Below, in pieces: positions 4,185-25,446 of a stretch of DNA of 64,000 nucleotides. The stretch is from Saprospiraceae bacterium (GTDB lineage: Bacteria > Bacteroidota > Bacteroidia > Chitinophagales > Saprospiraceae). The translations under genes and the position numbers were made by a program. Numbering within the stretch: position 1 is the stretch's first letter; each line of letters begins with the position of its first letter. Below the pieces are notes generated by a model that worked only from the letters and a program-made list of their open reading frames with translations, searched no databases and had not been told where the DNA came from. The stretch covers positions 248,001 to 312,000 of the forward strand of contig JALSGS010000045.1 in the NCBI GenBank assembly GCA_026982695.1. The letters are read 5' to 3'.

Positions 4185-7016
4185 CTATTCTATGCGCACA
4201 AACCTGCCTACACTGGTCTGGCCTCTCGATTCGATAGCGCGCAGTACATACATACCTTGGGTCAGATCGCGTACATCGACCGCCAACGGCTGCTCAGCTC
4301 TTGAAACAGTAGCCGACCACTGCCGTATCACTTCACCCGTGGTTGCCACTACCTGCAACTTATAGGCCCCTTCGGGTAATGCTACGTAGAGTACCTCACT
4401 GACAGGGTTAGGACGCAACAGCATCGCCCAGTTATCAGCCGACTTTATGGTATCCAAAGGACCTCCTACCGGATCAGGATTTTGCGGGCAAGGGCCTGGC
4501 GTCCACTCAACTACATAGTGAGACCAAGCAAAGCAGGCATTGTAATAGGTCACCCCATCACAGCCACAAACTGGATCATATACCAATACACACGCATCTG
4601 GTGGCGTGATTGTCGGATCCACGCATCCTGGTACTGGACAAGGACCAGGCGTGTAATAAGTGACCCCACTCCACAATATGGCAGCACAAGCGTTGAAATA
4701 CGTCACCCCATTACAACCACAGACTGGGTCATAGACATTCGGGCAAATACCAGTAGGCACGATTAAGCTGGAATCTACGCAATCTTGAGGGCAAGGGCCA
4801 GGTGTGTAGCTCGTCACGCCATGCCAATTAGTGGCAATACAGGCATTGTCGTAGGTTACCCCATCGCAACCACATACAGGATCATATTCGAGCGGGCAAT
4901 ATATAGCTGTATTAATCAAGTCCGGATCGATGCAGGGCTCGGCACACTCCAGCACCACTTCGATCCATACGTGACAGCACCAGCCCGACTGTTCGTCCAA
5001 AAGCAATACCTTGATGGGGATCACATCGTCGGGTTGTCCGCCCATCAGTTGTAAGGAAAAACAAGTCGGACTACCTGCCCAAGCGATCATGTCGGGCACA
5101 ATGGTAATGCCTGGTGTCTGCACTTCGAGCAAAACGACTGTAGGTGTTTGCGTGCCACTACTGTACACACAGAGATTAGGTATCGACCACGAGCCGTCGG
5201 ATAGGCAAACCACCTCATCTGCACCTGTCACTACGGCACAATCGCCACATTCGAGCTCCATTTCGTCTGGGCACACTTCGACCAGCTCATCGCCAATAGC
5301 TATGAGCCAAGCCCATGTAACTACTACGGGCGAAGTGGCGCCATTCACTTTTAGGCACAGGAAGAAAGGTGGCAATGGACCTTGCGGCATAGGACCATCT
5401 TGCCACTCTATGCGTACTTCTTGTGGAGAAAGAAAATGTGCTACCCACTGCCCCCCACCATCAAAGCTGCCGAAGACTGCATTTGGATCGCTAAGGCGAA
5501 ACACCAACCCGTAAAAATCCGTGAAACACGAATTGTTTACTGGTGTAAACTCATAGCAACAGTCATCGGGCACTGCGCCTGTGTTGGTAGGTAACGGAAC
5601 CGTAGCAGTCACTAACACATCGAGGCTGTCGCACACATCTATGGTGGGCGGAGGCACGCAATGCTCAAAGCGACAACACTCTTCGCCATCGCTGATGAAG
5701 ATAAACGTAAAACACCATTCATCATCGTTAGGCGGCAGCGCGCTGGCCAAGGTCGTAGTGAAGGGTCCTGCAGTAGTACCTGGAGCAATGGGAAACAACC
5801 CTGGATAGTTATTCGGTGAGAAGTATTGCGGCGAAGCCGAAACTCCCGCAGGTAAGTCTGTAAGCAAAAAGGACGTAACCGACTGGCTACTGGTGTTGGT
5901 CAAGAAGAAAGTATAGGTCCATTGTTGGCCTCCCGTCACGCAAGGCCCACTCGTTAATGTATCTTCCAGTACCTGGCCACAAGTATCTGCCGGCACCGGG
6001 CAAACACCAATATCTATGTCTAACTCTGTAGGCGGCCCACACAACGGCAGCGAATCGGGCCCAAAATAGTAAGATGAATCAGTGCTCACTACCCATCCCG
6101 GATCGGAATTGGTGTAGATGCTATTACTGCACGCTTTAGACCCGCTAAAAGATGTGCACCCATTCTCATCGGTAGTATGCACCTGACTCAAAATTATATT
6201 GGGCGGATATGGGCAATTGATGCTGTGAAAAACCGGCCAGTCTTCCATAGGCGGCTCACCAGGATCGCGAAATCCATTGCAGTTCAGATCCTGGAACACG
6301 CAGACCGTAAATAGCCACTTCGGAAGATTGTTGCCAAATATGAGGCCTTCATAATACCCACCTGGTGTCACTTGTATATCATGCCATGATGGATTTTGCG
6401 GGTAGGTTTGTACCCAGCCCGGTCGGAGCAATTCTTCCACGCGATAGGTGGCCGGAGCAGGCACGACGAGGTTCAAGCACGAATCAGTGGTGTAGACCGT
6501 ATCGGTCACGCCCGTTTGTAAATTGGTAATAAGAATTGGCCAGCTGGGGATGATGGGTTCATCTGCCTCCCAAATACCATTGCAGTTGATGTCTTCCCAT
6601 TTGCAAATAAACAAGGTAGCGGTGGGTGGTGTAGTGAGCACCACGCCAAAGTCCAATGATGCTACATTTTGACCAGGCACTACCATAAGTGAATATCCAC
6701 CACTAAGCGGATAGGTCTGATCGTAACCTGGCATGACGTTGAGCAGCAACAAGACGGAATGAGGCGCTCCCGTTGGCAACGCCACAGCGATGTCGTAACA
6801 TCCAGTACTGTCAGTAGTCACAATTTCGGAGGTACCTGTTGTCAAATCCGTAAACAAGATCTCCCATCCTGGTAGGGTAGGCTCGCCTGGATCGCGCTGG
6901 TGATTGGCGTTTACATCTTCAAACACACATCCTGTAAGGTGAACAGTAGGAGATTGGGCCAAGAGAAAGGTAGCGCCTTGCCATAACAGACCCAGCAAAA
7001 GTAAGTATTTGTTCAT
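4185..7016 (-). CDS. T9SS-secreted protein with SdrD-like modules and three Kazal-like modules
   Basis: 943 residues with a signal peptide ('MNKYLLLLGLLWQGATFLLAQ'-type, given here in outline). Three SdrD/SpaA-like modules follow (about 28-340), each opening with a Ca-binding-like loop such as 'FEDVNANHQRDPGEP', 'WEDINCNGIWEADEP' and 'FQDLNCNGFRDPGEP'. The middle is a beta-sandwich region rich in paired cysteines. At about 700-845 there are three tandem Kazal-like repeats of ~48 residues, each with 'YDPVCGC(D/N)GVTY(D/F/Y)NAC'. The end is a T9SS type A sorting domain ('RPNPVSEVLYV', 'GMYVLRA', ending 'VGRFVRIE'). By family knowledge it is exported through the T9SS and either anchored or released. 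Kazal modules inhibit serine proteases, so a role in protease inhibition is an inference. It stands alone between two plus-strand units. Confidence 0.85.
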   Translation of the reverse strand: MNKYLLLLGLLWQGATFLLAQSPTVHLTGCVFEDVNANHQRDPGEPTLPGWEILFTDLTTGTSEIVTTDSTGCYDIAVALPTGAPHSVLLLLNVMPGYDQTYPLSGGYSLMVVPGQNVASLDFGVVLTTPPTATLFICKWEDINCNGIWEADEPIIPSWPILITNLQTGVTDTVYTTDSCLNLVVPAPATYRVEELLRPGWVQTYPQNPSWHDIQVTPGGYYEGLIFGNNLPKWLFTVCVFQDLNCNGFRDPGEPPMEDWPVFHSINCPYPPNIILSQVHTTDENGCTSFSGSKACSNSIYTNSDPGWVVSTDSSYYFGPDSLPLCGPPTELDIDIGVCPVPADTCGQVLEDTLTSGPCVTGGQQWTYTFFLTNTSSQSVTSFLLTDLPAGVSASPQYFSPNNYPGLFPIAPGTTAGPFTTTLASALPPNDDEWCFTFIFISDGEECCRFEHCVPPPTIDVCDSLDVLVTATVPLPTNTGAVPDDCCYEFTPVNNSCFTDFYGLVFRLSDPNAVFGSFDGGGQWVAHFLSPQEVRIEWQDGPMPQGPLPPFFLCLKVNGATSPVVVTWAWLIAIGDELVEVCPDEMELECGDCAVVTGADEVVCLSDGSWSIPNLCVYSSGTQTPTVVLLEVQTPGITIVPDMIAWAGSPTCFSLQLMGGQPDDVIPIKVLLLDEQSGWCCHVWIEVVLECAEPCIDPDLINTAIYCPLEYDPVCGCDGVTYDNACIATNWHGVTSYTPGPCPQDCVDSSLIVPTGICPNVYDPVCGCNGVTYFNACAAILWSGVTYYTPGPCPVPGCVDPTITPPDACVLVYDPVCGCDGVTYYNACFAWSHYVVEWTPGPCPQNPDPVGGPLDTIKSADNWAMLLRPNPVSEVLYVALPEGAYKLQVVATTGEVIRQWSATVSRAEQPLAVDVRDLTQGMYVLRAIESRGQTSVGRFVRIE

Positions 7017-7353: not shown

Positions 7354-9489
7354 ATGCGATATACCGAAGCAGATCAGCGACGCCTCTATCACCTATCGAA
7401 AACGCTGCTACAACGTGAAGTACCTACCGACAAAGAAGCGGCAGCACAAATGGCTGCACAATTGCGAGAGGTGATCAACTACCACGAATATCGATACTAC
7501 GTACTCGACGATCCCGTGGTGAGCGACTACGAGTACGATATGCTCTACAAAAAGCTCGAAGCCATCGAAACGCAATGGCCTGAGCTAGTCACTCCCGACT
7601 CACCGACGCAGCGCGTCTCTTCCGATCTCAGCCATGATTTTCCCACTGTCCGCCATCTGGCTCCCTTGCGCTCGTTGGCCAACTCGTACAATGCCGCTGA
7701 CTTGTTGGAGTGGGAGCGCATGGTGCGCCGACTCACTGGTGTACCTGACGAGCAGCCCATCGAGTACGTCGTAGAGCCCAAATTCGATGGTAGCAGCATT
7801 GCCTTGGTGTACGAGCACGACTTGCTAGTGCGCGCAGCCACTCGCGGCAACGGTGTAGAAGGTGAAGACATCACGCCCAACGCCAAAGCAATCCGAGCTA
7901 TCCCATTACAGGCGCCCTTTTCTTCTGTAGGTATCGCCGTAGCCGAGTTGCGCGGCGAAGTACTCATCCGAAAGGACGTGTTCAAAAAGCTCAACGAAGA
8001 GCGCATAGCCCAAGGATTGGAGCCCTTTGCCAATGCACGCAATGCAGCTGCAGGTGGCCTGCGCATGAAAGACCCTCGCGAGACGGCTAGCCGCCATCTA
8101 GATGCTTTCGTCTATACGCTCAACTACGCTGTTGATGCGCAAGGCAACGACATGCACCATCCTATAGGCACTCATGACAAAGCCATGCAACTAGTCGGGC
8201 GCATGGGCTTCAAGGTACCCACCGAAGGGCACAAGGTGTGCAAAGACATCCACGAAGCCATTGCTTTTTGCGAAGCTTGGGAGCAACAACGCGACAACTT
8301 CCCCTATGAAATAGATGGCATGGTGGTCAAAGTCAACGACTACGAGCTGCGCGCGCGCTGCGGCAGCACTGAGCACCATCCACGCTGGGCGATGGCCTAC
8401 AAATTCAAGGCGCGGCAAGCCACTACTAAGCTGTTAGCCGTCGAGTTTCAAGTGGGGCGCACCGGTGCCGTGACGCCGGTAGCCAAACTCGAACCCGTGC
8501 ATCTGGCAGGTGTGACGATCTCGTCAGCTTCGCTACACAACGAAGACTTCATCCGCTCGCGCGACATCCGCATTGGCGACACGGTGTTGGTCGAACGCGC
8601 CGGCGATGTAATCCCTTACGTCGTCAAACCGCTGCTCGAGCTGCGCACCGGGCAGGAACGACCTATCGAGTTTCCCCGCCACTGCCCCGTATGTCATACG
8701 CCTTTATTTCGCCCGCCGGGCGAAGCCATCTGGCGCTGCATCAACAACCAGTGCCCAGCGCAAGTACTGCAGCGCATCATCTATCACGTGTCGAAAGATG
8801 GAATGGACATCGAGGGGCTGGGTAAAGCCAACGTAGAGCGCTTTTACCAGCTGGGGTGGCTGCGCTCATTGGCCGACGTCTATCGGCTCGACTACGATAA
8901 AATCACACAGCTTGACGGCTTCGGCCCCAAATCAGCGGAAAACTTGCGGCAAGCAATTGAACGCGCCAAGCACAACCCCTTACACAAACTCATCGCCAGT
9001 CTCAGCATTCCGCTCGTCGGCAAAAAAGTAGCCAAGCTACTGGCCCAACGCGTATACTGCATCTTCGACCTGCAGCAGTGGACTACGGCCGACTTCGAAC
9101 AAATCGATGGCATTGGCCCTGCAGTGGCACAAAGCGTGCGGGCTTTTTTCGACAATGAAAGCAACCTTCGCATGCTGCGCCAGATGGAAGCCCTGGGCGT
9201 CAACATGTGTCAAACGGAAGAAGACAAACCGCACAAACGCACTGCCCATAGCCCACTGGCGGGTAAGACTATTCTCTTTACCGGCTCGCTCGAACACATG
9301 ACGCGTAAAGAAGCTCAAGAAAAAGCTGAAGCTGCTGGCGCCGTTGTACTTAGCGGTGTGAGTAAAAAACTCGACATCTTGGTGGTGGGCAACAACCCGG
9401 GCTCCAAACTGCGCAAAGCCCAACAGCTCGGTAGCGTGCAAATCCTATCCGAAAAGGAATTCTTAGAACTACTGGAACAGGAAGGTTAA
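7354..9489 (+). CDS. ligA: NAD-dependent DNA ligase LigA
   Basis: 711 residues. It seals nicks in duplex DNA using NAD+. Domains in order: Ia (about 30-95, 'YYVLDDPVVSDYEYDMLY'), the adenylation domain with the nucleophile lysine in 'EPKFDG' (Lys 143), the OB fold ('FQVGRTGAVTPVAKLEPV'), the Cys4 zinc finger ('CPVCHTPLF' ... 'CINNQCP'), helix-hairpin-helix repeats ('IEGLGKANVERFYQLGW', 'LDGFGPKSAENL'), and a C-terminal BRCT domain ('AGKTILFTGSLEHMTRKEAQ'). The second motif residue is Phe rather than the more common Ile/Leu. The start ATG 7354 gives about 20-30 residues more at the N-terminus than in E. coli. The stop lies inside a 14-base palindrome (9488-9501) that could form a weak terminator. 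Confidence 0.97.
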   Translation: MRYTEADQRRLYHLSKTLLQREVPTDKEAAAQMAAQLREVINYHEYRYYVLDDPVVSDYEYDMLYKKLEAIETQWPELVTPDSPTQRVSSDLSHDFPTVRHLAPLRSLANSYNAADLLEWERMVRRLTGVPDEQPIEYVVEPKFDGSSIALVYEHDLLVRAATRGNGVEGEDITPNAKAIRAIPLQAPFSSVGIAVAELRGEVLIRKDVFKKLNEERIAQGLEPFANARNAAAGGLRMKDPRETASRHLDAFVYTLNYAVDAQGNDMHHPIGTHDKAMQLVGRMGFKVPTEGHKVCKDIHEAIAFCEAWEQQRDNFPYEIDGMVVKVNDYELRARCGSTEHHPRWAMAYKFKARQATTKLLAVEFQVGRTGAVTPVAKLEPVHLAGVTISSASLHNEDFIRSRDIRIGDTVLVERAGDVIPYVVKPLLELRTGQERPIEFPRHCPVCHTPLFRPPGEAIWRCINNQCPAQVLQRIIYHVSKDGMDIEGLGKANVERFYQLGWLRSLADVYRLDYDKITQLDGFGPKSAENLRQAIERAKHNPLHKLIASLSIPLVGKKVAKLLAQRVYCIFDLQQWTTADFEQIDGIGPAVAQSVRAFFDNESNLRMLRQMEALGVNMCQTEEDKPHKRTAHSPLAGKTILFTGSLEHMTRKEAQEKAEAAGAVVLSGVSKKLDILVVGNNPGSKLRKAQQLGSVQILSEKEFLELLEQEG

Positions 9490-9521
9490 TTAGCGCTAAT
9501 TTTCACAGCAAAAAGGCAGAC

Positions 9522-10418
9522 ATGGGGCAGCTATGGAACAAACTAAGTCGATGGATACTCACCGGAAGGGAAAGCCGAAAAATTGAACTCAAACAGGAGC
9601 TGCCTCTCGACAATCGCTCCCAAAGGGCATCTTTGGCCAAGCTGGTGACTGCTATTGCCAACACTCCAGGTGGCGTCGGATACATCATTTTAGGTGTAGT
9701 GGATGGCCGGCATCGCAGCGACCACAACGCCCCCGAAAAATACATCGTGGGCGTTTCCTATGAACCCGACACCTATCAGCGGCAGATTCAGCAGGCCCTG
9801 GCCGAATTCACGAACCCCATTCCCGAAGTGAGCTATGAAGACGTGGTAGTGCCGGAAGTCTCCCGGAAAATTGGCGTAATCACCATTGCGCGTAGCCGCC
9901 ACCAACCACACGAAATCATTAGAGAAAGTGGAGAAACAACCCCCGGCATCTACGTGCGGCGGGGAGCCGAGATTTTTACCGCACGTCGAGAAGAACTCTT
10001 GTACATGTCTGGAAATGCATCCTCCAACTACACCGTACTCGTCAACTTCACGCACCCCTTGAGCACTTACCATATCAGGCAAATAACACAACACGCCCAA
10101 GTATTTATAGCAGATGTACTGACACCAAGCAAAATCCCCGTGCACTTCGATGAACATACCTCGTTCGAACAGCAAGTGAAAAATGTAGTAGATGAAGTAC
10201 CATTGACCGACGAAGAGTGGCAAGAGCTTCCCATTATTGTCCACGTGCCGGGCTATGCTGCGATTACTGCACCACTGCTGGCAGAGCTACACGGTCGTAT
10301 GGGGCATTTCCCAAATGTGTTGCGCCTTCGACGCAACGACAGCAATCCCAACCAATATGACTTTGCCGAAATTATTTTCCTACAACGCATACGCGACCAG
10401 GCACGCAAGCGCAGCTGA
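9522..10418 (+). CDS. AlbA_2 (Schlafen-type) domain protein with a Csx15-like C-terminal domain
   Basis: 298 residues. About residues 15-165 match the AlbA_2 putative nucleic-acid-binding domain: 'ESRKIELKQELPL', 'LAKLVTAIANTPGG', 'YIILGVVDG', 'IVGV' and 'GIYVRRGAEIFTARREELL'. About residues 168-298 form a second domain: it begins 'YTVLVNFTHPLS', continues with 'FDEHTSFEQQVKNVVDEVPL', has a 'PLLAELHGRMGHFPNVLRLR' helix-strand core and ends 'FAEIIFLQRIRDQARKRS'. From memory these are the hallmarks of the CRISPR-associated Csx15 family, whose members are linked to type III systems and cyclic-oligoadenylate handling. No cas gene or array is in the window. The gene lies 32 bases after ligA, possibly as a tail gene of its transcript. 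The AlbA_2 call is firm; the Csx15 link is by recall of motifs only. Confidence 0.75.
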   Translation: MGQLWNKLSRWILTGRESRKIELKQELPLDNRSQRASLAKLVTAIANTPGGVGYIILGVVDGRHRSDHNAPEKYIVGVSYEPDTYQRQIQQALAEFTNPIPEVSYEDVVVPEVSRKIGVITIARSRHQPHEIIRESGETTPGIYVRRGAEIFTARREELLYMSGNASSNYTVLVNFTHPLSTYHIRQITQHAQVFIADVLTPSKIPVHFDEHTSFEQQVKNVVDEVPLTDEEWQELPIIVHVPGYAAITAPLLAELHGRMGHFPNVLRLRRNDSNPNQYDFAEIIFLQRIRDQARKRS

Positions 10419-10453
10419 GCAGCGCAGCACTTCTTGCGCGAAAGGCACCATAC

Positions 10454-10720
10454 TCACAGCAAATCGGGTAGGTCCTCTCGTGCTTCGGTAGCTGAAATTC
10501 TGTGGCGCAGGGCGGCCATGGTGTCAAGTAAGCGCTCTGCTTCCCGAAAAAAATCTTGGTCGAGCGCTTGCTGCAAATCCTCAAACCGCTCGAACTGTCC
10601 ATCTCGAAACTTCCACGTGAGCTCTAACAAGTCGCGTGCGACCTTCACGGCGAGGCGCTCGTCCCACTTGAATACAGTCACGTGCAAGCGCGGATGTGGA
10701 ATATGTCCTATAATACGCAT
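10454..10720 (-). CDS. Small uncharacterised protein, 88 residues
   Basis: The start is chosen at 10720 because GGAGAGG lies 5 bases upstream, a rare strong ribosome-binding site in this genome type. A longer open frame upstream is rich in Cys/Arg/Pro and looks non-coding. The protein opens 'MRIIGHIPHPRLHVTVFKW', like a beta-strand pair, and the rest is helical and charged ('FERFEDLQQALDQDFFREAE'), ending in acidic residues. It has no signal peptide and no membrane segment. I do not recognise the family. A promoter-like TTG-N16-TACCTTTG reads toward it from 10785, and the hairpin 10734-10745 carries one copy of the GCTTTCGCAAAA repeat. It is convergent with the AlbA_2 gene, 35 bases apart. 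Confidence 0.7.
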   Translation of the reverse strand: MRIIGHIPHPRLHVTVFKWDERLAVKVARDLLELTWKFRDGQFERFEDLQQALDQDFFREAERLLDTMAALRHRISATEAREDLPDLL

Positions 10721-10758
10721 AAGCCTCTCCTTTTTTTGCGAAAGCGAAAAAAGCAATG

Positions 10759-10785
10759 CAAAGGTAGTACGGGTTAGGGGTGCAA
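10759..10785 (-). promoter_or_regulatory. Bacteroidota-type promoter for the 88-residue protein gene
   Basis: On the minus strand this reads TTG (10785-10783), 16 bases, then TACCTTTG (10766-10759), matching the phylum's -33 TTTG / -7 TAnnTTTG pattern. It lies about 40 bases upstream of the start at 10720. Confidence 0.5.
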
Positions 10786-10880
10786 GTCGATTTTTTGCAT
10801 TACAACTTCGTGGACACACTTTGCTACCAACTGGATTGGGTATTTTCACCCCATTCAGCATGTAGCAAATCAAGTCAGCT

Positions 10881-11561
10881 ATGTCTAGCGATAATCACAC
10901 GTTTTTGCGCCTGCTCAACTTCTTGCTTCTGGCCCTAGTGGGCGGCTTGCTGTTGCGCATCTTGATGTTCAACCGCATTGCACTGATCATCTTGTTAGGA
11001 GTGGGGGCTTTGGCGGGTATTGTCTGGGGCATGTGGAAACTCATCCACCTTTGGCGCTATCGCCGCAGTCCTCAAGGTATTCTCGAGCGCCGCCAGCAGT
11101 GGTGCCACAGTCAGCTCAAGCGCCACCAACGCGAAATTTCGGAGATCAAGCGTAGCATGAAGGACTTGTACCTACAGCTGGACCAAGGCAAGGTGCTTTC
11201 GCAAAAGCAGCGCGACGAGCTGCGCCGCTTGTTGCACGAATACCGAGCCGAGCTGGACCTGCGGCAAGCCAAAGTAGCCTTTTACAAGGCCTGTATAGAA
11301 AAGCTCGACATACTTGGCCAACACCTGCAACTGACCCAGACGCTGCTGGAGAAAAAAGCCCGACTCAAGGCCATGCGTGAAGCTGACCAAGAAGAGCTGG
11401 CCGATCTGGAAGCACTAAAAAAAGACATTACATTAGACAAAAACTGGCTCTTGTCGTTCGAGCAACTCGCCCAACGCATCGAGCAGAGCCATACTCTAGA
11501 TGACGCCCAAGCGCTTCAGGTTGAGCTGGAGGAAATGACGCGCGAATTGAAATCCCTGTGA
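10881..11561 (+). CDS. Membrane-anchored coiled-coil protein of unknown function
   Basis: 226 residues. Two hydrophobic helices at the N-terminus (about 9-30 and 31-52, 'FLLLALVGGLLLRILM' and 'ALIILLGVGALAGIVWGMW') are followed by a basic stretch ('LWRYRRSPQGILERRQQW') and then a long charged alpha-helical region to the end, rich in Leu/Glu/Gln/Lys with heptad-like spacing. This fits a cytoplasmic coiled coil tethered to the inner membrane by a hairpin. I recognise no enzyme motif. It starts 160 bases upstream of nothing else on its strand and is 103 bases before the M14 peptidase gene. One GCTTTCGCAAAA repeat lies inside it (11195-11206). Function cannot be assigned. Confidence 0.75.
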   Translation: MSSDNHTFLRLLNFLLLALVGGLLLRILMFNRIALIILLGVGALAGIVWGMWKLIHLWRYRRSPQGILERRQQWCHSQLKRHQREISEIKRSMKDLYLQLDQGKVLSQKQRDELRRLLHEYRAELDLRQAKVAFYKACIEKLDILGQHLQLTQTLLEKKARLKAMREADQEELADLEALKKDITLDKNWLLSFEQLAQRIEQSHTLDDAQALQVELEEMTRELKSL

Positions 11562-11664
11562 GTACGCAGAGGTACACCTCACACTTTTTCTTTTGGCAAA
11601 AGCCAATAACTTCACGGGCCTAAAATGAGCTTTCCCCTCACCCGATTTTTTCAAAAAAAGCATC

Positions 11665-14163
11665 ATGAGAACATTTGCCTTACTCGTCGTACTGCTGTGG
11701 CAAATACTGCCTCCAGCACACGCCCAACTATTGTCGCCTGATGAGTTCCTACCCCATAAACTGGGCGAACAGTTCACACCACATCATCTCTTAGTCGCGT
11801 ACTTCGAACATGTGGCCGCCCAAAGCGAGCGCGTAATCCTACAGCGCTATGGCACCACTAATGAGGGGCGCCCCTTAATCGTGGCCATTGTTTCTTCGCC
11901 CGACAACCTGGCTCGTCTCGAAGCCATTCGCCACAACAACCTGCGCCGCGCAGGGCTGGAAGCTGGCACGCCCGACTCCGACGACCACATTGCCATTGTG
12001 TGGCTGAGCTTCAGCGTTCATGGCAACGAAGCAGCGGGCTCGGAAAGCTCAATGGGCGTGTTGTACGAACTGGTGCGCCCCGACAATGCCCAAGCAGCAC
12101 GCTGGCTGGAGCATGCCGTAGTCATTATCGACCCCAGCCTCAACCCTGACGGCTATGCGCGCTATACGCATTGGTATCGGGGCGTGAGCGAGCGCTGGCC
12201 CAACCCCGATCCTCAAGCACGCGAGCATCACGAGCCCTGGCCGGGTGGCCGCGTCAACCACTATCTGTTCGACCTGAACCGCGACTGGGCTTGGGCTACA
12301 CAAGTAGAAACACGTCAGCGCCTGGCGATCTATCAACAGTGGATGCCCCACATCCATGCCGACCTACACGAGCAAGGCTACAACAACCCTTATTACTTTG
12401 CGCCAGCAGCACAGCCCTATCACACTTATATTACACCCTTTCAGAGTGAATTTCAAGTAGCGATCGGACGCAACCACGCGCGCTACTTCGATCAATATGG
12501 TTGGCGCTATTTCACGCGCGAAGTATTTGACCTGCTCTATCCCAGCTATGGTGACACCTATCCTACCTTCAACGGTGCCATCGGCATGACGTACGAACAA
12601 GGTGGTCACAGCCGCGCCGGTCGTGCCATCCTCATGGAGAATGGCGACACACTTACTTTGGCTGACCGCATCCGCCACCACATGACTACTGCACTCTCTA
12701 CCGTAGAGATTGCTGCTGCTCGTGCCTCACAGCTCACCAAAGCTTTTGCCGCCTATTTTGCGAAAGCACAACAAGACCCACCCGGCCCATGGAAGACTTT
12801 TGTGATCAAGGTGAACAACCCACCGGCCAAGCTCAAGCGCCTTCTTGCGCTCCTCGATCGGCACCGCATACGTTACGGCACGGCCACAGAACAAAAAAGC
12901 ATACAAGGGTTCGACTATGCCAGCGGGCAAGTTCAGGCCGTAGAAGTACAACCTGGCGATTTGATTATCAGTGCCCGGCAGCCCAAAGGGATCTTGACGC
13001 AAGTACTCTTCGAGCCCGAGCCCGAATTGGCCGATTCGCTCACCTACGACATCACGGCATGGGCCTTACCCTATGCACATGGCTTAAAAGCTGCTGCACT
13101 AAAGCAAGATGTAGCCGCTAGCAAAGACTTTACCGTAGCCAGTGCAGCACCACCCGACACCAACATGGCATATGCTTGGCTCATTCCGTGGAACAGCCTG
13201 GAAAGTGCTCAGATGCTGGCTGCACTGCTGCGCCAAGACATACGAGTGCGTTTTGCCGAAAAAGCTTTCGCTATTGATGGTCGCCACTGGGATGCCGGCA
13301 CTTTGGCCATCATGCGTGCTGACAATGAAGATATGTCCAACTTGGCAAAGCAAGTGAATCAAGTGGCGAAAAGCTTTCCCAATACGGAAATAGTAGCCGT
13401 GCAGTCGGGCATGGTGAGCACAGGTTCCGACTTTGGTTCGGCCACGTGGAGATTGATACACCGCCCACATATTGCTTTAGTAGGTGGCAAAGGCACCTGG
13501 GCCAACGCCTTTGGCCACGCCTGGTATGTATTTGAACAGGATCTGGAATACCCCATCACAGTAGTCAATGCCGAAGACCTGAAGCACCTGGACTGGAGTG
13601 GTTTTGACTTGTTGATCTTGCCCGACGGCTTTTACCAATTCGATGACCAGCTATTAGCTCAGGTGCAACAATGGATCAAGCGCGGTGGGCGCCTCATTGC
13701 CCTAGGGCGTGCTAACGCAGCACTGGCTGGGAAAAAAGGCTTTGCCCTACAGCGCAAAACCGATGCGAAGGCCCATTCGACACCGCGTCGGCCTGCACGC
13801 TTTGAAGATCGCATCCGAGATGCCATCAGCGAAAGCATTCCTGGTGCCGTGTATAAGCTCCATCTCGACAACAGCCATCCGTTGGGCTTGGGCATGCCTC
13901 AGTACTACTTCTCGCTAAAAACTACAGAGGCACAATTCAAACTCCTGGATCAAGGGTGGAATGTGGGCTATATCGGCGATGATCCACAGGCGGTGGGCTT
14001 CGTAGGTTGGCGCTTGCGCCACAAGATGAAAAACACCTTGGTGTTTGGCGTAGAGCCCAAAGGACGCGGCGCCATCATCTATCTCATCGACAACCCGCTC
14101 TTCCGCGCCTTCTGGGAACAAGGTAAGCTCTTGTTTGCCAATGCCGTCTTTTTGGCCCAGTAA
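11665..14163 (+). CDS. M14-family zinc carboxypeptidase, secreted
   Basis: 832 residues with a signal peptide ('MRTFALLVVLLWQILPPAHA'). The M14 catalytic domain fills about residues 30-360. The zinc ligands are visible in 'SVHGNEAAGSES' (H-x-x-E) and in 'HADLHEQGYNNPYYF' (third His), and the general-base Glu is probably in 'GMTYEQGGHSRAGRA'. Substrate-binding Asn-Arg is in 'DLNRDWAWATQ'. The remaining ~450 residues include a glutamine-amidotransferase-like alpha/beta segment ('FDLLILPDGFYQFDDQLLAQ', 'GGRLIALGRANAALAG') common in large Bacteroidota M14 proteins. It probably acts in the periplasm or outside the cell in peptide use. No sorting domain is seen at the C-terminus. Confidence 0.88.
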   Translation: MRTFALLVVLLWQILPPAHAQLLSPDEFLPHKLGEQFTPHHLLVAYFEHVAAQSERVILQRYGTTNEGRPLIVAIVSSPDNLARLEAIRHNNLRRAGLEAGTPDSDDHIAIVWLSFSVHGNEAAGSESSMGVLYELVRPDNAQAARWLEHAVVIIDPSLNPDGYARYTHWYRGVSERWPNPDPQAREHHEPWPGGRVNHYLFDLNRDWAWATQVETRQRLAIYQQWMPHIHADLHEQGYNNPYYFAPAAQPYHTYITPFQSEFQVAIGRNHARYFDQYGWRYFTREVFDLLYPSYGDTYPTFNGAIGMTYEQGGHSRAGRAILMENGDTLTLADRIRHHMTTALSTVEIAAARASQLTKAFAAYFAKAQQDPPGPWKTFVIKVNNPPAKLKRLLALLDRHRIRYGTATEQKSIQGFDYASGQVQAVEVQPGDLIISARQPKGILTQVLFEPEPELADSLTYDITAWALPYAHGLKAAALKQDVAASKDFTVASAAPPDTNMAYAWLIPWNSLESAQMLAALLRQDIRVRFAEKAFAIDGRHWDAGTLAIMRADNEDMSNLAKQVNQVAKSFPNTEIVAVQSGMVSTGSDFGSATWRLIHRPHIALVGGKGTWANAFGHAWYVFEQDLEYPITVVNAEDLKHLDWSGFDLLILPDGFYQFDDQLLAQVQQWIKRGGRLIALGRANAALAGKKGFALQRKTDAKAHSTPRRPARFEDRIRDAISESIPGAVYKLHLDNSHPLGLGMPQYYFSLKTTEAQFKLLDQGWNVGYIGDDPQAVGFVGWRLRHKMKNTLVFGVEPKGRGAIIYLIDNPLFRAFWEQGKLLFANAVFLAQ

Positions 14164-24321: not shown

Positions 24322-25446
24322 ATGCTCCCACACGCGCTCATTATTCGCTTTCGCCAACAACTTTTACAATGGCATGCCAGCTGCCCACGCCCTATGCCGT
24401 GGAAAGGCCTGCGCGATCCTTACCTCATCTGGCTGGCCGAAGTCATTCTCCAACAAACGCGCGTGACACAAGGATGGCCTTGGTTTGAACGCTTTCGCAA
24501 AAGGTTTCCCACCGTACAACACCTGGCAGCAGCCACTGAAGACGAAGTACTCAAGCTGTGGGAAGGGCTGGGCTACTACACGCGTGCTCGCAACCTCTGG
24601 CGCACTGCGCGCTATGTAGTCGAACAGCTCGATGGGCAATTCCCACGAAACTATGAAGGGCTATTGAAGCTCAAGGGTATCGGCCCCTACACTGCTGCAG
24701 CCATTGCCTCTTTCGCCTGGCGCCTGCCACATGCCGTAGTGGATGGCAACGTCTTGCGCGTGCTGGCGCGTTTTCTGGCTGACGATACCCCCATCGATTC
24801 GGGCCCCGGTAAACGTCATTTCACCCAGCTAGCGCAAACCCTCCTCGACCCTCAATATCCCGACAGCTTTAATCAGGCGATAATGGACTTAGGTGCTACC
24901 GTATGTACGCCTCATAACCCACAATGCCATAAATGCCCATTACATAGCGATTGCCGCGCAACCCGACAAGGCATTGCACCATTGCTACCGGTAAAGCGCC
25001 GAAAAACCAAAGTGCGTACCCGGCATCTACACTATCTAATATGGACCGACGGCCAACACACCCTACTGCAACGCCGCCCTTCAGGCGATATCTGGGCGGC
25101 ACTCTACGACTTCCCCTTTGTCGAGACGTCGCACCCTACCACCTCAGGCCAACAACTGCTCCGACAGTGGCTACACGCTCACCAATTGGCTGAGCCCAGG
25201 TCTCTGCCCCATCCCACACTACTGTGGCAGGGGCGCCAACGCCTCACACATCAACTCATATGTGGGTACTACTGGTGGGTCCTCACGCATCAACTTCCCC
25301 CTACACTACACAACTGGCAGTACGTAACCATTGAAAACTTGTGTAAGTTTGCCCTCCCAAAACTGACTGGCAACTTTTACACTTATTTGCTTAATTTTAA
25401 GGACAGTTTACCTACAGGCAAAAGTAACGGCATCTATAACCCTTAA
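24322..25446 (+). CDS. mutY: A/G-specific adenine glycosylase
   Basis: 374 residues. It removes adenine mispaired with 8-oxoguanine. The protein opens 'MLPHALIIRFRQQLLQWH' with 'PMPWKGLRDPYLIWLAEVI' and 'LQQTRVTQGWPWFERF' (catalytic Glu region). The helix-hairpin-helix 'LLKLKGIGPYTAAAIASF' precedes the catalytic Asp in 'AVVDGNVLRVLAR'. The four [4Fe-4S] cysteines are in 'CTPHNPQCHKCPLHSDC' with C-x6-C-x2-C-x5-C spacing. The C-terminal ~130 residues are the NUDIX-like 8-oxoG recognition domain. ssb follows 11 bases later; mutY-ssb-gldE-gldD is a conserved Bacteroidota order. A GCTTTCGCAAAA repeat lies at 24491-24502. Confidence 0.95.
   Translation: MLPHALIIRFRQQLLQWHASCPRPMPWKGLRDPYLIWLAEVILQQTRVTQGWPWFERFRKRFPTVQHLAAATEDEVLKLWEGLGYYTRARNLWRTARYVVEQLDGQFPRNYEGLLKLKGIGPYTAAAIASFAWRLPHAVVDGNVLRVLARFLADDTPIDSGPGKRHFTQLAQTLLDPQYPDSFNQAIMDLGATVCTPHNPQCHKCPLHSDCRATRQGIAPLLPVKRRKTKVRTRHLHYLIWTDGQHTLLQRRPSGDIWAALYDFPFVETSHPTTSGQQLLRQWLHAHQLAEPRSLPHPTLLWQGRQRLTHQLICGYYWWVLTHQLPPTLHNWQYVTIENLCKFALPKLTGNFYTYLLNFKDSLPTGKSNGIYNP

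Follow-up and report, generated by a model that had tools for sequence, protein, structure and literature searches.

The window, by which we mean the whole 64-kb stretch of DNA that was analyzed (G000:C45:248001-312000, from contig C45 of its own genome), carries ligA, encoding the NAD-dependent DNA ligase, at 7354-9489, and the ligA stop codon lies 32 bp 5' of an open reading frame of 298 codons on the forward strand (9522-10418). This frame starts with ATG, lies about 63 kb from the nearer end of contig C45, and encodes a 298-aa protein in which an AlbA_2 domain is followed by a Csx15 domain, as follows.

9522..10418, + strand: cash-like gene, AlbA_2 (Schlafen) and Csx15 domains, 298 aa (domain matches, near full-length homology to PDB 9ylu CbCash, AF2 model with mean pLDDT 90.1)
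9570..9971, + strand: AlbA_2/Schlafen domain, residues 17-150 (Pfam PF04326, E 7.2e-14; fold matches to Schlafen and SAMD9 tRNase domains)
10035..10412, + strand: Csx15 domain (CARF superfamily), residues 172-297 (NCBIfam NF040560, PADLOC Csx15, fold matches to SAVED/CARF proteins)

The GC content of the gene (51.5%) and its GC3 (55.2%) fall inside the range of 21 other ORFs in the window, and no foreign codon or GC signature was seen. A consensus scan restricted to sigma-70 types showed no promoter-like site for the gene, and no same-strand terminator-like site was found by consensus scan between ligA and the gene, so that read-through from ligA is possible, although such a scan proves nothing. 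No CRISPR-like direct repeats and no array were found in the 64-kb window, and none of 48 further ORFs of the window matched a cas family in a scan with PADLOC profiles (E ≤ 1e-5); these were chosen from the frames of at least 150 aa, with ligA and alternative frames that overlap others left aside.

The two domains and their conserved residues

Residues 172-297 matched the NCBIfam model NF040560 (CAS_Csx15) at E 3.4e-36, with 124.2 bits where the cut-off is 35, and the protein also matched the PADLOC Csx15 profile (E 2.6e-35). According to a study of the Csx15 family (PMC13148439), cA4 is the Csx15 ligand and lies between dimers that are stacked head to tail, such that filaments form. That study describes PfCsx15 as a cA4 sponge and CliCsx15 as a slow ring nuclease. 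In vitro, PfCsx15 left cA4 undegraded, and its activity toward cA3 and cA6 was very limited. The H13A substitution abolished cleavage by CliCsx15, H90A left very low activity and abolished oligomerization, and H11A and R123A impaired the cA4-driven oligomers of PfCsx15, R123 being the third of three arginines and having a secondary role (PMC13148439). Alignment placed the following equivalents in the window protein.

10053..10055, + strand: H178, equivalent to CliCsx15 H13 and PfCsx15 H11 (alignment; mutant data in PMC13148439)
10290..10292, + strand: H257, equivalent to CliCsx15 H90 and PfCsx15 H82 (alignment; mutant data in PMC13148439)
10392..10394, + strand: R291, equivalent to PfCsx15 R116, a phosphate contact (alignment; PMC13148439)
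10404..10406, + strand: R295, equivalent to PfCsx15 R120 by spacing from R116 (alignment; PMC13148439)

Both histidines and two of the three arginines are therefore kept in this alignment. The position of PfCsx15 R123 falls by spacing on S298, next to R297, which occupies a column that is variable in the family. We compared these positions across 41 Csx15 rows, made up of the window protein and 40 tblastn matches among the loci compared, a set that represents only the best-scoring part of the hits. Histidine is present at position 178 in 34 of the 41 rows (the others being five gaps, one Q, and one A) and at position 257 in 39 (one gap, one Q), and arginine is present at position 291 in 39 (one gap, one D) and at position 295 in 38 (one gap, one L, one A). 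The sole row with Q at both histidine positions is CbCash, a protein of solved structure that is described below and that also has L at 295; since these three positions are H178, H257, and R295 in the protein of the window, CbCash may bind its ligand differently. A third fusion protein (L067:2070-2957) keeps H, H, R, and R at 178, 257, 291, and 295. The window protein thus resembles CliCsx15 (9teu) and PfCsx15 (9tet) in its C-terminal domain and in the equivalents of H13/H90 and R116/R120, but the Csx15 proteins described in PMC13148439 stand alone at roughly 130 aa, whereas that of the window is fused to a Schlafen domain and has no clear counterpart of PfCsx15 R123. Csx15 frames of ~195-202 aa were seen in family f18 genomes (L016, L017, L018, L021, L028-L030, and L033). 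These have ~60 extra N-terminal residues, which look hydrophobic where read (for example, 'LLTFFALTTGVVSIIE'), and to judge from this composition the frames may encode Csx15 proteins that are anchored in the membrane, as opposed to plain ring nucleases.

The N-terminal half matched the Pfam SLFN_AlbA_2 profile over residues 17-150 (52.8 bits, cut-off 25.3) and carries a set of three acids that matches E205, E210, and D248 of rSLFN13, both in the spacing of the motif and when AlbA_2 rows are aligned.

9570..9572, + strand: E17, first acid of the putative Schlafen triad (alignment; rSLFN13 triad E205/E210/D248)
9585..9587, + strand: E22, second acid of the putative triad (alignment; +5 spacing, as E205-E210 in rSLFN13)
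9702..9704, + strand: D61, third acid of the putative triad (alignment; +39 from E22, compared with +38 for E210-D248 in rSLFN13)

Mutation of E205, E210, or D248 diminished or abolished RNA cutting by rSLFN13, and SLFN5 and mSLFN1 keep two of the acids, yet the tRNAs tested were left uncut, as reported in PMC5862951. The corresponding residues are E, D, and D in CbCash, and E, E, and D are kept in the other aligned AlbA_2 rows that reach this region, with the exception of a shortened frame (L067:4785-5432) that has the D only. Retention of these acids is shared by further AlbA_2 proteins and is hence no proof that the window protein is a nuclease. Like the Schlafen and SAMD9 tRNases (SLFN13, 5yd0, PMC5862951; rSAMD9, 9o0d), the window protein has the fold and the three-acid set at near-matching spacing. 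It differs from them in having one lobe per chain together with a cyclic-nucleotide sensor, its identity to the tRNase domains is low (15% to 9o0d and 20% to 5yd0), and its RNA cutting is only predicted.

The AlphaFold2 model of the window protein, built from an input alignment of 29 rows, has a mean pLDDT of 90.1 and a pTM of 0.85. Fold comparison was carried out per domain, as a second look at 1000 chains, against a structure library ending on 8 April 2026, and the rows listed did not include 9ylu or 9teu. The best row for the N-terminal domain was 3lmm (Z 10.9, 138 aligned, rmsd 3.4), and the domain also matched the rSAMD9 tRNase 9o0d (Z 8.3, 143 aligned, rmsd 4.3) and SLFN13 5yd0 (Z 7.7, 113 aligned, rmsd 3.6). 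The C-terminal domain was of the CARF/SAVED type, with Z values of up to 8.0 for Cap5 (8fm1; 105 aligned, rmsd 3.0), 7.8 for a SAVED-CHAT filament, 6.2 for the CalpL filament, 5.2 for the CARF domain of Cad1, and 5.1 for the ring nuclease Sis0811. Argonaute MID domains also reached Z ~5 and were partly tied with the SAVED/CARF rows, so the lower of these rows are unspecific and the sequence matches weigh more. The Z values are middling, and phmmer matched the Csx15 half alone to the solved CliCsx15 9teu at E 6.4e-17 and to PfCsx15 9tet at E 0.0038; taken together, the Csx15 half is predicted to have a CARF-superfamily fold. In this respect the window protein is like the filament-forming CARF and SAVED effectors (CalpL, SAVED-CHAT, TIR-SAVED, and Cad1), in which a cyclic-nucleotide domain with a matching sensor fold is fused to an effector, but its sensor is of the Csx15 type, with one CARF strand fewer (as given in PMC13148439), and its effector domain is AlbA_2.

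These matches bear out the AlbA_2-Csx15 fusion proposed in the preliminary description, as well as the Csx15 signature named there, the quoted peptides of which are present in the translation. The suggestion that one domain serves a cyclic nucleotide and the other a nucleic acid is also the best reading, with one refinement: the fold match to the Schlafen and SAMD9 tRNases and the kept acids make a nuclease likelier than plain binding, and the AlbA_2 half is, on these comparisons, probably competent as an RNA-cutting Schlafen domain.

CbCash, a third fusion, and the position behind ligA

The sole near full-length match in the PDB, as judged by phmmer, is CbCash (9ylu, 9ylv, and 9ylx; 28 chains over the three entries), with residues 1-295 of the query aligned to 1-291 of 9ylu (E 4.4e-72) and 123 of 293 aligned positions identical. 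'Cash' may stand for 'CRISPR-associated Schlafen'. The AlbA_2-Csx15 architecture is accordingly already known from a PDB deposit, and the novelty of the window gene lies in its solitary off-locus position and in the ring-nuclease residues that it retains; no published description of a Schlafen-CRISPR fusion or of Cash was found in a search that lay outside bioRxiv and most subscription journals.

We located the CbCash gene at L015:10001-10894, in the metagenome-assembled genome Chloroflexi bacterium isolate NC_groundwater_1624_Pr3_B-0.1um_63_24 (JACRBQ010000080.1), where its product and 9ylu match at full length (297 of 297 residues, 667 bits). Upstream lie a Cas10/Csm1 gene (631 bits, TIGR02578) and ORFs reading as Csm2 and RAMP proteins. 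The CbCash gene overlaps a separate Csx15 gene (L015:10891-11271, 162.7 bits), downstream of which are an array with 25 repeats or more and two ORFs that, judged from their reading alone, are Cas6 and Cas1. The third homologue (L067:2070-2957, - strand, genome G858) encodes 295 aa, is identical to the window protein at 108 of 292 aligned positions (37%), and adjoins Cas6 (Pfam), an ORF reading as Cas1, a Cas10/Csm1 gene (556.8 bits), and 9 repeats. Both other full-length fusions that were found are inside type III CRISPR loci with arrays. Each of these loci also holds another AlbA_2-like frame. In the CbCash locus, which thereby has two AlbA_2 genes, L015:4513-6594, between Cas10 and the Csm2-like ORF, joins AlbA_2 to a NACHT ATPase; near the third fusion, the aligned part of L067:4785-5432 (- strand) is without the first two acids, a Pfam search with its 167-aa part gave nothing at E ≤ 0.01, and the frame may be a truncated partner.

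The window protein shares with CbCash the two domains, their order, and the acids (E, D, and D in CbCash), and its genome likewise contains a type III Cas10. The two differ in setting, CbCash lying within a type III locus near an array and overlapping a separate Csx15 gene, whereas the window gene lies outside any type III locus, next to ligA; they also differ in that the two Csx15 histidines and one of the arginines, all kept in the window protein, are replaced in CbCash (by Q, Q, and L, respectively). This comparison bears on whether the window protein might act mainly as a cA4 sponge or slow ring nuclease that damps the resident type III-D system (see below), its AlbA_2 half being structural or only nucleic-acid-binding. 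The retained histidines would fit such a role, as would the sponge or slow ring-nuclease activity of separate Csx15 proteins (reported in PMC13148439) and the presence of the same acids in other AlbA_2 proteins. However, the operon in the same genome already carries a Csx20 domain fused to Csx1, and CbCash has lost its histidines, kept its AlbA_2 domain, and precedes a separate Csx15, as would be expected if the fusion is the effector and Csx15 the off-switch. We therefore consider a mainly damping role unlikely.

Between the window protein and CbCash, the AlbA_2 halves are 44.8% identical and the Csx15 halves 37.8% identical, whereas the window Csx15 half is up to 46.8% identical to separate Csx15 proteins. 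A Csx15 tree joins the three fusions weakly (70/65; 66% of bootstrap trees), on long branches, which leaves loss of constraint in CbCash, a sensor swap, and separate fusions all possible. The fusion may thus have had a single origin or several, the Csx15 domain of the window protein being nearer to separate Csx15 proteins than to that of CbCash.

Matches over both domains are rare. In the family to which the window belongs, 1 of 298 genomes had one (the window genome itself), with four further matches that were weak and partial. Across the phylum the count was 1 of 395 (again itself); 46 genomes matched, nearly all over one domain, and those matches that run some way across the domain border were L035 (E 1.1e-9), L044 (E 2.7e-5), and G609 (E 8.5e-4), L035 and L044 having no match in the Csx15-row search. 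The phylum of CbCash gave 2 of 400. No relatives were found in viral contigs, plasmids, or phages, and a scan of genome contigs, which gave one locus (that of CbCash), used narrow peptide patterns and is no measure of rarity.

Comparison with a genome of the same genus, G028, showed how the gene is placed. The ligA genes are 79% identical at the DNA level, and in G028 a convergent ORF follows ligA within about 20 bases, whereas the window has about 0.95 kb more between the two.

9490..10452 (approximate ends), no strand: stretch between ligA and the convergent ORF that is missing in G028 (window versus G028 comparison)

The convergent ORF itself (10454-10873, - strand), which is small and lies 3' of the fusion gene, has no Pfam match at E ≤ 0.01 and is conserved in G028, with 43.5% identity between the proteins. 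Neither the fusion gene nor the convergent ORF was found by ligA in five other genomes of the family (L073-L077), in flanks of ~1.5 kb where the contig allowed. The gap in G028, the single occurrence among the family genomes, and these five ligA flanks point to insertion of one gene and to no conserved ligA neighborhood, and insertion of a lone gene in this lineage is a simpler reading than loss in G028. A gene that arrives in this way could be a horizontally transferred type III effector that has lost its function within the resident type III-D system and is now a decayed or silent passenger, and its isolation from any adjoining cas operon and its rarity in the family agree with that idea. 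We nevertheless regard it as very improbable: the frame is open and without stops, the catalytic and ligand residues are better kept than in the solved CbCash, the model is confident over both domains, and a Cas10 with a GGDD motif is still present in the genome.

The type III-D operon in the same genome

PADLOC profiles identified a type III-D operon on contig C39 (12.5 kb; L009:1213-12499) of the genome that contains the window. It comprises Cas10d (10714-12204), which is small (496 aa) and has a GGDD motif, together with Cas7, Cas5, a double Cas7, Csx19/Cas11, a large Cas7, and a Csx1-Csx20 fusion; it also contains a weakly matched CARF-PDDEXK-like protein (E about 1e-6), and its Cas6 is cut by the contig end. 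No CRISPR array was found on the 12.5 kb of contig C39. A second Cas10 on contig C20 was rejected because it fell under the cut-off; the ORF concerned has a GGEEF motif, and we take it to be a diguanylate cyclase. In PMC12409355, the Csx20 tested is called a cA4-specific ring nuclease, although in the tests described there cA3 was also degraded at a ten-fold-higher protein concentration. Together with this specificity, the Csx1-Csx20 fusion suggests that cA4 signaling operates in the genome.

The fusion gene on contig C45 is unlinked to this operon. The preliminary description had placed it away from any CRISPR system, which holds within the window, with no array and no cas match in the 48 ORFs, but does not hold for the genome, and the step from local absence of CRISPR to a new housekeeping use is undone by the operon with its GGDD Cas10. 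Nor does the protein appear to be the stand-alone sensor suggested there, given that its genome has its own Cas10 and that both other full-length homologues are in type III loci, one of them being the CbCash of the PDB; the proposed new use in a housekeeping locus is likewise unsupported, in view of the absence of the gene behind ligA in one same-genus genome and five others of the family.

A type III Cas10, confirmed by Cas10 family models, is present in all three genomes with the full fusion, a co-occurrence that is suggestive in what is a very small sample, one member of which (G688) was the starting point. No Cas10 match was found in G028, which is without the fusion gene, when four genomes were examined. 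Matches to the Cas10 model PF22335 over its cut-off occurred in 75 of 298 genomes of the window's family and in 117 of the 400 from the phylum of CbCash, rates that may be too high since the E. coli control likewise scored above the cut-off and the model may count GGDEF-type proteins. Csx15-domain matches are common in the CbCash phylum, occurring in 64 of 400 genomes (the two fusion genomes included), and there a strong Cas10 match (E ≤ 2e-9) was found in 61 of the 64, compared with 43 of the 336 others; the Csx15 genomes without one were G812, G967, and G1060.

The signal might instead come from outside CRISPR, in which case the protein would sense another cyclic nucleotide and, as part of a housekeeping setting around ligA, exert control over RNA, DNA, or expression. 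The gene is indeed unlinked to cas genes, and at 32 bp behind ligA, with no promoter- or terminator-like site by consensus scan, it may be cotranscribed with ligA. Yet all three full-length homologues are in Cas10 genomes, two of the three inside type III loci, and a gene present in 1 of 298 family genomes and absent from a same-genus genome is no conserved housekeeping part. Furthermore, a search of the genome for the SMODS family alone gave no synthase match (the control matched in 3 of 14 genomes), which also disfavors CBASS as the source of the signal. A CRISPR-independent sensor is thus quite unlikely.

Proposed function in trans

The window gene is most likely an off-locus CRISPR effector rather than a new housekeeping sensor, and we think it probable that it encodes a Cash-type Schlafen ribonuclease that is activated by cA4 and serves the type III-D system of contig C39 in trans. 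In such a scheme, recognition of foreign RNA by the type III-D complex would lead the GGDD Cas10 to make cyclic oligoadenylate, most likely cA4, which would be held between Csx15-domain dimers in a stack and so bring the AlbA_2 domains together. Clustering would then activate the AlbA_2 domains, by analogy with the SAVED and CARF filament effectors discussed in PMC13148439, and the clustered Schlafen domains would cut RNA, probably tRNA, by means of E17, E22, and D61, stopping growth or phage multiplication.

With both H178 and H257 retained, slow breakdown of cA4 by the sensor itself is also probable, and the protein would in this way limit its own activity. The complete form of this proposal, in which a lone gene behind ligA supplies a type III-D system elsewhere in the genome with a cA4-triggered tRNA nuclease that has H178 and H257 as its own off-switch, is one that we put forward tentatively, as a possibility somewhat short of even. 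If it is true, the family spans two designs, that of CbCash, with dead sensor histidines and a separate Csx15 as off-switch, and one with the off-switch built in. The contrast between histidines kept here and histidines lost in CbCash, which has an adjoining separate Csx15, offers a testable hypothesis on how Schlafen-type effectors are switched off.

The usual place to look for type III effectors is the cas operon or its vicinity. The presence of a Cash relative behind ligA, far from cas genes, suggests that searches of cas neighborhoods can miss effectors. In addition, the fusion would link, in one bacterial chain, the Schlafen fold of mammalian antiviral RNases to control by a cyclic nucleotide.

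Two other ORFs in the window were recorded in passing. A frame of 374 aa at 24322-25446 (+ strand) matched the PADLOC profile REase_II, 'Type II nicking endonuclease' (E 2.2e-27), and one of 943 aa at 4185-7016 (- strand) has repeated 'YDPVCGCDGVTYxNAC' units, which we take to be Kazal-like, and what is presumably a type IX secretion tail.
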